NCBI RefSeq assembly: GCF_030811555.1
Contig: NZ_JAUSQZ010000001.1
Span: forward strand, 1,488,001 to 1,552,000
Direction of reading: 5' to 3'
DNA: 64,000 nt
Origin: Kineosporia succinea
GTDB lineage: Bacteria > Actinomycetota > Actinomycetes > Actinomycetales > Kineosporiaceae
Numbering within the stretch: the first letter of the stretch is position 1; every line of letters begins with the position of its first letter. Positions 4,845-34,277 of this stretch are shown one piece after another. The notes beneath the pieces are model-generated. The model made no database searches, had not been told where the DNA came from, and saw only the letters and a list, made by a program, of their open reading frames with translations. Both the position numbers and the translations under genes were made by a program.

Positions 4845-5171
4845 CTACACCAGGTCGTGCACCGCGATGATCGCCTCGACGGCGGTGACCCGGAACAGGT
4901 CGGTGCGATCGCCCCCGCGCAGCAGGTCGTGCCCGAGCACGAGCGCCTGGTCGGCCAGGGCGTGGGCGCCCAGTACCGGTACCTCACGGCGCGGTTCGCC
5001 GTCGGCCTCGGCGGTCAGGTCGGCGATGCGCTGCAACCCGGCGCGGATCCGGCCCAGCAGCTCGGCGGCCTCGTCGCTGCTGCGAGCCGCCATCCGCGGG
5101 CCGACCACGCGCAGCCGGTCGGCGAGCCGGTCGAGACGCTTGACCGCTTCTTCGTGGGTGGGGCTCAGCAC
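4845..5171 (-). CDS. small helical protein of unknown function
   Basis: A 108-residue, highly charged, probably all-helical protein; I do not recognise a family. Heptad-like Leu/Ala spacing runs through the first 55 residues (VKRLDRLADRLRVV, AAELLGRIRAGLQRIADL). There is no signal peptide, membrane segment or Cys. It starts 19 bases after the stop of the glutamine-synthetase-like gene on the same strand, so it is probably the third gene of the operon that begins with the APS-kinase-like gene. Coding composition matches its neighbours. The function may be tied to the GS-like protein, for example as a small partner subunit, but this is inference from position only. Confidence 0.6.
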   Translation of the reverse strand: MLSPTHEEAVKRLDRLADRLRVVGPRMAARSSDEAAELLGRIRAGLQRIADLTAEADGEPRREVPVLGAHALADQALVLGHDLLRGGDRTDLFRVTAVEAIIAVHDLV

Positions 5172-5190: not shown

Positions 5191-6513
5191 TCACTGCATC
5201 TCGAACCCGCGGCGCCGTTCCCAGTCGGTCACCACCCCGTCGAAGGCCTCCAGCTCGGCGTCCGCGGCGCGCAGCACCATCGCCACCACGTCCTCCCCGA
5301 AGGCGTTGCGGGCCAGGTCCGACCCGGCGAACGCCTGCCGGGCCGCGCTCAGCGAGGCCGGCACCCGGGCCAGCCCCGGCGCGCGGAGGTCTCCCACCAG
5401 CGGCTGCTCGAGCGGCAGCCCGGCGCGGATGCCGTACAGACCGCCCGCGAGCATGCCGGCCAGCGCCAGGTACGGGTTCACGTCCGAGCCCGGCACCCGG
5501 TTCTGCACCCGCAGCGACTCGCCCCGCCCGGCCACCCGCAGTGCACCGCCCGCACCGCCCTCGGCCCAGGTGATCGCGGCCGGGGCCCCGCCGCCGTCGC
5601 GAAAACGCTTGTACGAGTTGACCGTCGGGGCGTAGAGCAGGGTGAAGTCGCGCAGGGTGGCGAGCACCCCGGCGACGAAACTGCGGAACACCGCGCTGCG
5701 CCCGTCGCCGCTGGTGCCGGCCTCGGCGGGGTCGGCGAAGACGAAGCTCCCGTCCAGGCCGCGCAGGCTCATCGAGACCCGCGCGCCGTTGCCGGGCCGG
5801 TCGTCGTAGCGAGCCATGAAGGTCAGGGCCCGCTCGTGGCGCCCGGCCAGCTCGGTGGCCGCCGACCGGAAGGCGACGTGGTGGTCGGCCGTGCGCACCA
5901 GATCGTCGTGGCGGAAGGTCAGGTCGTACTGCCCGGGCACGCCGGTGCCGTGCGACGAGTGCACGGTCAGGCCCGAGTTGTAGGCGGTCTGGCGCAGGTC
6001 GCGCAGCAGGTCTTCGTCGGCGTTCGTGCCGCCCAGGCTACGACTGGCAGGTGCCAGGTCCAGACCGGTCCAGTGCTGTGACGCCGCCTGGGCGTAACCG
6101 GTGCCGAACACGGTGAACTGCAGCGCCACCGACGCGGCCGGCACCACCCCGAGATCGGCGGCCTCCCGCACCTGGGCCGCGAGCACCTGCCGGGGAGCGG
6201 TGCGCACCGGCAGGCCGTCGGCCCGGAAGAGATTGCCCTGCACCATGACCGAGCCCGCCATCCAGGGCGCTGGGCGCAGGGTCGCCGGGTCCGGCCGCAG
6301 CACCAGTGCGCCCGACGGCGCGACCAGGCTCACCGCGCTCGGGTCGGCGCGCACCGGCTCCACGTTCAGCCCGTTGGCCAGCACGGTCGAGGAGAAGTAC
6401 CGCGCGTGCACCCGTTCGCCCTGCAGGCGCCCCGCCGGATCGGTCCACACCACCAGCACGGTGTCGACGTGCCCGGAGTTGACGAGACGCTCGAACTCAT
6501 CCAGCTCCAGCAC
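5191..6513 (-). CDS. glutamine-synthetase-fold protein lacking canonical metal ligands
   Basis: Clear homologue of the GlnA3/GlnA4-type glutamine synthetase family over 440 residues (GTG start at 6513 behind AAAGGGA, 13 bases after the kinase stop). The N-terminal beta-grasp part (VDTVLVVWTDPAGRLQGER) and the C-terminal catalytic fold are present, with NSYKRF (299-304) and PGSDVNPYLALAGMLAGGLYGI (341-362) well kept. Judged by eye against family members, every canonical Mn/Mg ligand differs: the ELEF-type pair is A130/Q132, the GEWGPGQEE-type pair is T190/D197, the HIHMSL His is R245 (with S247), and the RVENR Glu is Q337. Standard glutamine synthesis or gamma-glutamylation therefore looks unlikely, and a structural, regulatory or altered role is inferred. 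The frame is intact and composition is normal, so this is not a decaying gene. Confidence 0.85.
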   Translation of the reverse strand: MLELDEFERLVNSGHVDTVLVVWTDPAGRLQGERVHARYFSSTVLANGLNVEPVRADPSAVSLVAPSGALVLRPDPATLRPAPWMAGSVMVQGNLFRADGLPVRTAPRQVLAAQVREAADLGVVPAASVALQFTVFGTGYAQAASQHWTGLDLAPASRSLGGTNADEDLLRDLRQTAYNSGLTVHSSHGTGVPGQYDLTFRHDDLVRTADHHVAFRSAATELAGRHERALTFMARYDDRPGNGARVSMSLRGLDGSFVFADPAEAGTSGDGRSAVFRSFVAGVLATLRDFTLLYAPTVNSYKRFRDGGGAPAAITWAEGGAGGALRVAGRGESLRVQNRVPGSDVNPYLALAGMLAGGLYGIRAGLPLEQPLVGDLRAPGLARVPASLSAARQAFAGSDLARNAFGEDVVAMVLRAADAELEAFDGVVTDWERRRGFEMQ

Positions 6514-6526
6514 CGCGATTCCCTTT

Positions 6527-8023
6527 CTAGGAGACGTAGCCCCGCTCGGTGAGCAGCGCCCAGACCTGGTCCACGGCCGCCTCGACGGTGATGCCCGTGG
6601 TGTCGATGCGCAGTTCCGGACGCTCCGGCACCTCGTACGGCGACGAGATCCCGGTGAAGTCCGCGATCTCCCCGCGCCGGGCCCGGGCGTACAGCCCCTT
6701 GCGGTCGCGGCGTTCGCACTCCTCGAGCGGTGTGGAGATGTGCACGAGCACGAAGTCGCCCACCTCCTCGACCCCCGCCCGCACCTGGGCGCGCACGGTC
6801 TCGAACGGGGCGATCGGCGCGCACACGGCCAGCCCTCCGTGCCGGGTGACCTCGGCCGCCACGTAGCCGATGCGCCGGATGTTGAGGTCACGATCGGCCC
6901 GGCTGAAGGTCAGTCCCGCCGAGAGCATGCGCCGCACCTCGTCGCCGTCGAGGAGCGAGACCGTGCGGACGGTGTGGTCGAGCAGCCTCTCGGCCAGCGC
7001 CTTCGCCACGGTGGACTTGCCCGACCCGGACAGGCCGGTGAAGAACAGCGTCAGGCCGCGGCGGTGCGGGGGTGGCACGGCGCGCGCGTGCTCGCGGGCG
7101 AAGGCGGGGTGCAGGGCGCCGATGATGGACGCGGTGGTCACCTCGGAGCCGGCCGCCGCCCGCGGGCGGGGAGCCGGGGATTCGAACGGGGCCGTCGCGG
7201 GCACGCCGGTGACGGAGGTCGTGCTGGTCACCTCGGACGCGGTGGTCGCTTCGGACGCTGCGGTCACCTCGGACGCTGCGGTCACCTCGGACGCGGCGGG
7301 GCTGACGACGTCGGTGGCGCCGTGGCCGCGGGCCACGGCGGTGATGAGGGCGGTGTCGTCGGTGTGGGCGAGCCGGGGCACGGCGACCACGACGGCCTGG
7401 TCGGCGGGGCGGCCCTGGCCGTCGGAGTTGCCGGGGACGTCGGAGCTGCCGGGGACGTCAGAGCTGCCGGGGACGTCAGAGCTGCCGGGGACGACGGCCG
7501 CGACATCGCGCACCGCCCGCCAGAGACCGTCGGCGGGAAGGGGCAGCTGGCGACCGGCGCCGATCACCGCGATCCACAGCACCCGGGCCCCGGCCCGGGC
7601 GGCCCGGGTCCGCACCTCCTCGACCTGCGCCGAGGTGAGCAGGTCGAGAACCGGTACGGCCAGCACCACCTCATCGGCGGCGAGAGCCTCGCGGACCTGG
7701 GCCGGCGACCGCCGCGCCGCTCGCACCGGACCGTGCGTGAACGGCCGCAGCGGTGTGAACTCCGGCAGGGGCGGCGCACCGGCCTTGCGGGTCAGGGTGG
7801 CGACCGGGGTGCCCTCGGCGTCTTCGAGCGTGACGGCCTCACCGGCGGACAGGCGCTGCTCGACCGCGGCCGGCAGGTCCAGGGCAAGGTCCAGCGCGGG
7901 GTCCAGCCCGGCCGCGACCGGCAGTGCTCCGCTCAGCACCAGCTCGGCGATCTCGAGCAGGGGCTGGGGCGGGTGCCAGCTCAGGGGCGCGTCGGTCGTA
8001 GCGGCGTCATCACGTTCAGGCAC
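6527..8023 (-). CDS. cysC: adenylylsulfate kinase with degenerate sulfurylase-like N-terminal region
   Basis: The C-terminal 200 residues are an APS kinase, which phosphorylates APS to PAPS: Walker A GLSGSGKST, LLDGDEVRRML, the lid region SRADRDLNIRRIGYVA and the family motif YARARRGEIADFTGISSPYE. The N-terminal 190 residues resemble a PUA/ATP-sulfurylase-type domain but lack the HxxH and QxRN catalytic motifs. Between them is a low-complexity linker with tandem VPGSSD and ASEVTA hexapeptides. I prefer the GTG at 8023: it sits 7 bases after a TAGGCT -10 box, as in a leaderless transcript. An ATG at 8059 would add 12 residues but lies directly behind the hairpin of the upstream gene and has no Shine-Dalgarno. 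It heads an operon with the GS-like and small helical genes. CysND is encoded separately near 35 kb. Confidence 0.85.
   Translation of the reverse strand: MPERDDAATTDAPLSWHPPQPLLEIAELVLSGALPVAAGLDPALDLALDLPAAVEQRLSAGEAVTLEDAEGTPVATLTRKAGAPPLPEFTPLRPFTHGPVRAARRSPAQVREALAADEVVLAVPVLDLLTSAQVEEVRTRAARAGARVLWIAVIGAGRQLPLPADGLWRAVRDVAAVVPGSSDVPGSSDVPGSSDVPGNSDGQGRPADQAVVVAVPRLAHTDDTALITAVARGHGATDVVSPAASEVTAASEVTAASEATTASEVTSTTSVTGVPATAPFESPAPRPRAAAGSEVTTASIIGALHPAFAREHARAVPPPHRRGLTLFFTGLSGSGKSTVAKALAERLLDHTVRTVSLLDGDEVRRMLSAGLTFSRADRDLNIRRIGYVAAEVTRHGGLAVCAPIAPFETVRAQVRAGVEEVGDFVLVHISTPLEECERRDRKGLYARARRGEIADFTGISSPYEVPERPELRIDTTGITVEAAVDQVWALLTERGYVS
7139..7300 (+). repeat. 18-bp in-frame repeats encoding A/T-S-E-V-T hexapeptides
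   Basis: Imperfect 18-bp units, read on the minus strand as variants of ASEVTA, lie in the linker of the APS kinase gene. Because the unit is a multiple of three, copy number can vary without a frameshift. Confidence 0.7.
7423..7493 (+). repeat. 18-bp in-frame tandem repeats encoding VPGSSD
   Basis: About four nearly identical 18-bp units (core GAGCTGCCGGGGACGTC) encode VPGSSD or VPGNSD on the minus strand. With the neighbouring ASEVT repeats they make the flexible linker between the N-terminal region and the kinase. Confidence 0.8.
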
Positions 8024-8065
8024 GTCGATCAGCCTAAGTGCTGAAGCTGGGCGGGCCATGACAAA

Positions 8066-33341: not shown

Positions 33342-34277
33342 ATGGACTTTGATCCGTTGATGGCCCTCGCGGCCTTCGGCATCGGCATCGTGGTGGGCCT
33401 GACCGGCATGGGCGGCGGCGCCCTGATGACCCCCGTGCTCGTGCTGTTCTTCGGCGTCACGCCGATGGCCGCGATCTCCAGCGACCTGGTCGCGGCGGCG
33501 GTGATGAAGCCCGTCGGGTCGTGGGTGCACCTGCGGCGCGGCACCGTGAACCTCTCGCTCGTGGGCTGGCTCTGCCTGGGCTCGGTGCCGGCGGCGTTCG
33601 GCGGGGTGCTGGTGGCGCGGGCGTTCGGCAGCGGTGAGTCGGTGCAACACGGCATCAAGATCGCGCTCGGCGTGGCCCTGGTGATCGCGGCGGCCGGGCT
33701 CGGGATCCGGGCCTACCAGAAGCTGGTGGAACAGGCCGCGCAGCGCGACGGCGTGGTCCCGGTGATCGACGAGGAGACCCCGGTGACCGCCCGCCCGGTG
33801 CCCACCGTGCTGGTCGGCATCCTCGGCGGGCTGATCGTCGGCATCACCTCGGTGGGCTCCGGCTCGCTCATCATCATCGCGCTGATGGCCCTCTACCCCA
33901 CCCTGAAGGCCGCCCAGCTCGTCGGCACCGACCTGTTCCAGGCTGTGCCGCTGGTGTTCTCGGCCGCGATCGGGCACATCCTCTTCGGCGACTTCCACCT
34001 CGACCTCACGCTGGCCCTGATCGTCGGCAGCGTGCCCGGGGCCTGGCTCGGCGCCCAGCTGTCCACCCGCCTGCCCGGCGGGCTGGTGCAGCGGGCCCTG
34101 GCGTTCGTGCTGCTGGCCTCGGCGCTGAAGATGTTCGGCGTGGGCAATCTCGAGACCGCTCTCGCGCTGGGCGCTTTCCTGGTGGTGACGCCGGTGGTGT
34201 GGATGTACCTGGTGCGCCGGCACGCGGTTTCGGCGCCCCCGTCGGATCGTGAGCCGACCACGTCCGGCGCCCACTGA
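33342..34277 (+). CDS. TauE/SafE family sulfite/anion permease
   Basis: A 311-residue membrane protein of the TauE/SafE family, with two homologous halves each opening with a Gly-rich motif: GLTGMGGGALMTPVLVLFFG (about 19-38) and GITSVGSGSLIIIALMALY (about 166-184). Eight or so hydrophobic segments are visible, with a cytoplasmic-type polar loop near residues 120-150. The family exports sulfite, sulfoacetate or related organosulfur anions. It converges on the cysQDN operon, so involvement in sulfur traffic is plausible but not proven. The ATG sits six bases behind a TATAGT box, which implies a leaderless mRNA. Confidence 0.9.
   Translation: MDFDPLMALAAFGIGIVVGLTGMGGGALMTPVLVLFFGVTPMAAISSDLVAAAVMKPVGSWVHLRRGTVNLSLVGWLCLGSVPAAFGGVLVARAFGSGESVQHGIKIALGVALVIAAAGLGIRAYQKLVEQAAQRDGVVPVIDEETPVTARPVPTVLVGILGGLIVGITSVGSGSLIIIALMALYPTLKAAQLVGTDLFQAVPLVFSAAIGHILFGDFHLDLTLALIVGSVPGAWLGAQLSTRLPGGLVQRALAFVLLASALKMFGVGNLETALALGAFLVVTPVVWMYLVRRHAVSAPPSDREPTTSGAH

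Follow-up and report, generated by a model that had tools for sequence, protein, structure and literature searches.

A glutamine synthetase-fold protein of Kineosporia, probably a former GlnA4-type ligase, that appears to be kept by selection without its metal ligands

Can a gene of the glutamine synthetase (GS) superfamily be kept by selection once every residue that binds its catalytic metals has been replaced? The question is raised by a gene for a protein of 440 amino acids in a 64,000-nucleotide stretch of the Kineosporia succinea genome (RefSeq assembly GCF_030811555.1, contig NZ_JAUSQZ010000001.1, positions 1,488,001 to 1,552,000; here called the window, and numbered from its first letter). 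We propose that this gene very probably descends from a GlnA4 gene, no longer serves GS-type catalysis and is kept by selection, and that its product is probably a retired gamma-glutamylethanolamide synthetase of the GlnA4 type that persists as a non-catalytic GS-fold protein. A role in binding or as a scaffold seems likelier than new chemistry. The gene and the residues on which the argument turns lie as follows.

5191..6513, including the stop codon, minus strand: putative GS-fold pseudoenzyme of 440 amino acids, probably a former GlnA4-type ligase, in which every metal-ligand position is changed (Pfam, alignment)
6520..6526, minus strand: AAAGGGA, the likely ribosome-binding site of this gene (read from the sequence)
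6118..6126, minus strand: A130-L131-Q132, replacing the E-x-E ligand pair (alignment)
5923..5946, minus strand: T190 to D197 (T-G-V-P-G-Q-Y-D), in place of E...E (alignment)
5773..5781, minus strand: R245-V-S247, in place of H-x-H, a metal ligand and the ATP-contact histidine (alignment; roles from an extract of PMC6529630)
5503..5505, minus strand: Q337, in place of the last Glu ligand, with the kept R335 and R339 on either side (alignment)

The reading frame starts with a GTG codon (6511-6513, minus strand). Its product matches the GS-superfamily profile over the catalytic domain (PF00120, Gln-synt_C; 219 bits vs a cut-off of 24, profile positions 3-343 of 344), and the GS fold is kept according to a confident structural model, with 11zs and 5dm3 as the closest solved relatives. 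The motifs NSYKRF and PGSDVNPYLA, which the first-pass annotation had described as remaining, are both found in the translated frame. A plasmid search returned only relatives below 60% identity (top row 43.8%).

In Salmonella numbering, the two-metal site of GS consists of E129, E131, E212, E220, H269 and E357, H271 contacts the phosphate of ADP or ATP, and R321, R344 and R359 are named as contacts of glutamate or of the ADP phosphate (PMC6529630, in the extract from which all reference residue roles are taken). By alignment with relatives and with the genome's own GlnA1-like protein, the six metal positions of the window protein are A130, Q132, T190, D197, R245 and Q337, exactly the residues first reported, and the ATP-contact position is likewise altered, to S247 in all six Kineosporia genomes. 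Neither the two-metal site nor the phosphate-contacting histidine that an active GS-type ligase requires is present. The glutamate and ATP arginines of such a ligase (R321, R359, R344) are present as R303, R339 and R326, and these three, together with R335, which we take to be the counterpart of R355, are retained in all 33 aligned sequences. The substitutions neutralise the charge of the emptied metal sites, Glu having given way to Ala/Ser, Gln or Thr, and His to Arg. Ligands preserved at shifted positions would have overturned this picture, and none exist: the MAFFT and phmmer alignments concur on the ligand positions, the spacings 190-197 (7) and 197-245 (48) match those of all 14 non-Kineosporia GlnA4-like rows measured, and an alignment slip is ruled out because the changes fall inside ungapped motifs.

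With the intact family member as query, 297 genomes of the order were searched (E up to 1e-90). This gave 74 loci and, after removal of duplicates, 66 distinct GlnA4-like sequences in 65 genomes, all of which were read at the ligand positions; L032, cut by a contig end, was dropped from this tally and from the tree. The intact set E-E-E-E-H-H-E is found in 58, the Kineosporia set in six, and two sister-genus sequences are partly changed, reading S-E-E-E-H-Q-E (G006) and K-Q-H-E-H-H-E (G008). The window protein nests inside the clade of intact GlnA4-like rows; the six Kineosporia sequences form one clade (100/100), and so do the eight changed sequences (99/99), which likely are a single clade. 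We named the larger clade GlnA4-like from its gene cluster and ligand spacing, the tree holding no S. coelicolor sequence. The spacing 61-7-48 occurs in all 14 of the non-Kineosporia rows, and 61-7-48-85, found in L021 and L022, is the same as that implied by the published GlnA4 residue numbers. On this sequence evidence the window protein is GlnA4-like by descent, that is, of the gamma-glutamylethanolamide synthetase type.

No second GlnA4 copy was found among the six GS-family genes of the window's genome, where the other GS genes L001-L004 keep all ligands and fall outside the window clade (tree: L002 and L004). One further gene, L006 (G000:C1:4532763-4536290), lies between the GlnA2-like and GlnA1-like genes; its weak score against PF00120 pointed at first to a second odd GS, but by its motifs, read by eye, it is presumably a GSII-type (eukaryote-like) glutamine synthetase. 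Elsewhere in the order, L105 (G073:C15) is a second GlnA4-like copy that has all ligands intact despite its very long branch (1.37).

Within Kineosporia, the altered set is (A/S)-Q-T-D-R-S-Q in six of six genomes at 78-82% identity, with A or S at position 130 and the rest identical; a state common to six genomes rules out sequencing error or a chimera. The frame, already described as intact, is open in all six, and internal stops are absent from all eight degenerate genomes (the six together with G006 and G008). Among the 440 residues, 303 are identical across the six Kineosporia. Twelve intact close relatives (a set without L024, which nearly duplicates L023) share 137 invariant columns, and all six Kineosporia retain 71 of these; of the seven catalytic columns none is kept, and six are fixed in a new state. 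The ratio of nonsynonymous to synonymous substitution (dN/dS, NG86) has a median of 0.20 over 15 Kineosporia pairs (excluding L106, a copy of L015), which is probably an upper bound, because synonymous differences plateau in GC-rich genes. Neighbouring genes, compared in five of the six genomes, gave 0.20 (GDSL), 0.21 (APS kinase), 0.25 (the open reading frame, ORF, of 108 amino acids) and 0.34 (Bax inhibitor), and the 13 closest distinct intact GlnA4-like pairs (dS <0.40) gave 0.03-0.23. Taken across the full 1673 intact pairs, with duplicates counted, the ratio (median 0.45) proved unusable, since synonymous differences plateau there. These comparisons indicate that the gene is under purifying selection in Kineosporia. 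A kept fold, lost catalytic residues and selection on the gene are marks of a GS-fold pseudoenzyme, and the view that this is a retained pseudoenzyme and not a decaying gene is supported by the shared substitutions, the open frames, the dN/dS of about 0.20 and the GS-fold model.

Constraint is uneven along the protein, as seen from the regional ratio of nonsynonymous to synonymous differences (pN/pS) among the six Kineosporia.

6310..6393, minus strand: residues 41-68, which correspond in the alignment to the GS D50 loop, variable and partly deleted in two Kineosporia (pN/pS 0.53)
5542..5601, minus strand: residues 305-324, the former E327-flap region, variable and with the conserved N-R lost (pN/pS 0.60)
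5602..5703, minus strand: residues 271-304, including NSYKRF, the most constrained segment of the protein (pN/pS 0.02)

Residues 1-40, 69-137, 161-250 and 325-440 have values of 0.15-0.33, and the confidence of the model (predicted local distance difference test, pLDDT) drops to 54-58 over residues 51-70. The substitution pattern thus points to a pocket floor that is largely constant, with the lids and two other stretches free.

What became of the pathway around the gene? Gene neighbourhoods were inspected for 11 of the 57 genomes whose GlnA4-like protein is intact (L041 begins at a contig end, and the contigs of L044 and L048 are short). Genes were called with a simple GC-position script, ten proteins were checked against Pfam, which confirmed AA_permease, GntR/FCD, Aldedh, adh_short, Peptidase_C26 and TauE on representatives, and names were carried over by tblastn. 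The intact loci hold an aldehyde dehydrogenase (ALDH, 11 of 11), a short-chain dehydrogenase/reductase (SDR, 10), a C26 hydrolase (9), a GntR/FCD regulator (7, and one 44-aa piece) and a permease (3), and the Streptomyces glnA4 gene is described in a cluster of the same content (extract of PMC6529630). By tblastn, ALDH, SDR and C26 are all absent from the eight degenerate loci, which therefore lack the GlnA4 cluster; the absence of the regulator and permease says little, as these are found in only 7 and 3 of the 11 intact loci. Genome-wide, ALDH matches at 82-100% identity and C26 matches at 62-100% occur in all four intact family genomes. G006 and G008 have no ALDH match at E 1e-100, and the eight degenerate genomes have no C26 match at E 1e-20, bar one relative at 41% identity in G004. 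Two other genes adjoin the GS-fold gene.

4845..5171, minus strand: protein of 108 amino acids without a Pfam family, a conserved downstream neighbour of the GS-fold gene (Pfam, tblastn)
6527..8059, minus strand: adenosine 5'-phosphosulfate (APS) kinase with a shortened ATP-sulfurylase-like N-terminal region, ending 13 bp before the GS-fold gene (Pfam, fold of the K. rhizophila copy)

At the intact locus of G007 the order is Bax inhibitor, APS kinase, TauE, GS, ALDH, C26, a homologue of the 108-aa ORF and, farther on, GDSL; in Kineosporia it is Bax inhibitor, APS kinase, GS fold, 108-aa ORF, GDSL and a cystathionine-beta-synthase-like gene. The APS kinase and the 108-aa ORF flank the GS-fold gene in all eight degenerate loci. 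A TauE-like gene at 33351-34223 of the window, about 27 kb from the GS-fold gene, is 60% identical to the TauE beside the GS in G007 and is possibly a relocated neighbour of GS.

EutB is an alternative ethanolamine enzyme in all six Kineosporia (in the window's genome eutB is at G000:C1:466082-467392, L107, with eutC adjoining), and none of the seven other family genomes has it. Across the order it occurs in nine of 297 genomes, and these nine include not one of the 57 whose GlnA4-like protein is intact. This non-overlap is suggestive only, as three genera are involved and chance would give about 1.7 overlaps.

The sequences show three things about the gene. Intact relatives sit in a GlnA4-type cluster of GS and aldehyde dehydrogenase, usually with SDR, C26 hydrolase and GntR/FCD regulator; in one clade, which spans three of the family's genera, the other cluster genes are missing and the metal ligands are lost in part or entirely; in Kineosporia the ligand set is fixed in a new state, with purifying selection on the gene and the APS kinase directly upstream. 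A protein that lacks the Mg/Mn sites and the histidine that contacts ATP, and whose lids are altered, would be unable to carry out the ATP-driven gamma-glutamyl phosphate reaction. The kept R303, R326, R335 and R339 may form an anion pocket, and the protein most likely acts as a ligand-binding or structural (oligomeric) partner and not as an enzyme. The first candidates for its partner are the APS kinase or a GS paralogue, and that the APS kinase is the partner we consider rather doubtful. It is a long shot that a dead GS ring and the APS kinase form one complex that senses glutamate or another carboxylate through the four arginines and tunes the synthesis of 3'-phosphoadenosine 5'-phosphosulfate (PAPS); if true, such a complex would couple nitrogen to sulfur assimilation.

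The APS kinase is the only one in the genome, in which no PF01747 ATP sulfurylase was found. Its N-terminal region belongs to no Pfam family and had no match in a sequence search of the PDB, and the modelled K. rhizophila copy matches ATP sulfurylases by fold; from this model, the shortened fold looks catalytically dead. The window enzyme differs from the APS kinase of Thiobacillus denitrificans (3cr8) in its shorter N-terminal part and in having no PF01747 match. Two arrays of 18-bp tandem repeats in its gene (7226-7299 and 7420-7497) encode in-frame Ser/Thr/Ala-rich and PGSSDV-like repeats, which are not in eight aligned relatives.

Several observations weigh against the proposal of a retired GlnA4 kept by selection. 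Streptomyces GlnA4 itself is outside the alignment and the tree. The order of ligand losses inside the clade is provisional, because branches are long (L020 0.84, Kineosporia stem 0.94), with the tree flagged for long-branch meeting and the window row for odd letter make-up, and because L020 joins Kineosporia at 98/67 only (SH-aLRT 67). Thinned control trees, built from 31 and 26 of the 71 rows, place L017 with Kineosporia once L020 is removed (94/68) and L020 with L017 once Kineosporia is removed (95/97). The six Kineosporia retain ALDH relatives (at 42-44% identity only) and G004 its distant C26 relative, and replacement by EutBC fails for the clade as a whole, since the partly changed G006 and G008 are without EutB; hence pathway loss, not EutBC gain, is the common factor. 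The synonymous sites look near saturation, which makes dN/dS only rough, and the Kineosporia value, at the upper end of the intact-pair range, allows for some relaxation. Two neighbours are far more constrained (cystathionine-beta-synthase-like 0.10, response regulator 0.04), and residues 138-160 (pN/pS 0.73) and 251-270 (0.54) are as free as the lids. Finally, the step from Glu to Asp at D197 is conservative, so that this residue could still contact a metal, and with the neutral oxygens of Q132, T190 and Q337 a weak metal site could in principle be formed.

How do other explanations fare? The first-pass annotation had offered either a pseudoenzyme or an enzyme with changed chemistry, of which the pseudoenzyme stands and changed chemistry is less likely, because the loops that close the GS active site vary or are partly deleted and the pathway enzymes are no longer beside the gene. 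Such an enzyme would use a pocket of Q132, T190, D197, R245, S247 and Q337 with the four arginines to act on a glutamyl-like substrate with one metal or none, and the fixation of six of the seven altered positions in every Kineosporia, the kept arginines and the purifying selection speak for it. We know of no GS-fold enzyme that works without metals, which also counts against it, and we consider it improbable. Slow decay, in which the function went along with the ethanolamine pathway and the gene is merely unbroken so far, would fit the loss of the partners, the free variation of the lids and two other stretches, the loss of some ligands before others and a dN/dS near the top of the range for close intact pairs. 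It is nevertheless a poorer prospect than changed chemistry: eight of eight degenerate genomes have no internal stop, the dN/dS of about 0.20 is similar to that of two neighbours, 303 of 440 residues are identical across the six Kineosporia, and segment 271-304 has a pN/pS of just 0.02. A surviving gamma-glutamyl ligase, with its metals bound by D197 and by oxygens of the Gln and Thr side chains, could draw on the conservative D197 and the kept substrate arginines, but the protein has lost both glutamates of E-x-E, the metal-binding and ATP-contacting histidines and the conserved N-R of the flap region, the downstream enzymes have no close match, and of these explanations we give it the least credence.

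A former GlnA4 kept as a non-catalytic GS-fold protein would be of interest beyond this locus. Few enzyme folds are as old or as thoroughly studied as that of GS, and accounts of dead members that selection has retained are rare. Here a single bacterial family offers intact relatives alongside two intermediates and six end-points, with the gene context of each, so that the loss of catalysis, lids and partners, and the use of a metal-free GS fold, can be put to laboratory test on proteins of living relatives. Both the GS family and GlnA4 are already known, and a kept bacterial GS pseudoenzyme appears new in the literature searched: among the matches listed for open-access papers none describes one, the animal protein lengsin being the only such case.

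Compared with known systems, the closest is GlnA4 of Streptomyces coelicolor, whose cluster content and ligand spacing are shared by the intact close relatives. According to the extract of PMC6529630, it keeps the six metal residues and H276; in the window protein all of these are changed and the cluster is lost. The solved relatives 5dm3 (GS-like Csal_0679 of Chromohalobacter salexigens) and 11zs (GS of Brucella melitensis) have canonical ligands, unlike the window protein. In mycobacteria, reductive evolution of glnA3 and glnA4 has left disrupted copies in some species (as summarised in an extract of PMC2667176); those are broken genes, unlike the kept gene of the window. Lengsin, the GS-I-like protein of the human lens, is portrayed in the extract of PMC10222646 as having no GS activity, as probably structural and as a "pseudo-glutamine synthetase". 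It is an animal lens protein, likened to the window protein by description only, as a GS relative without GS activity.
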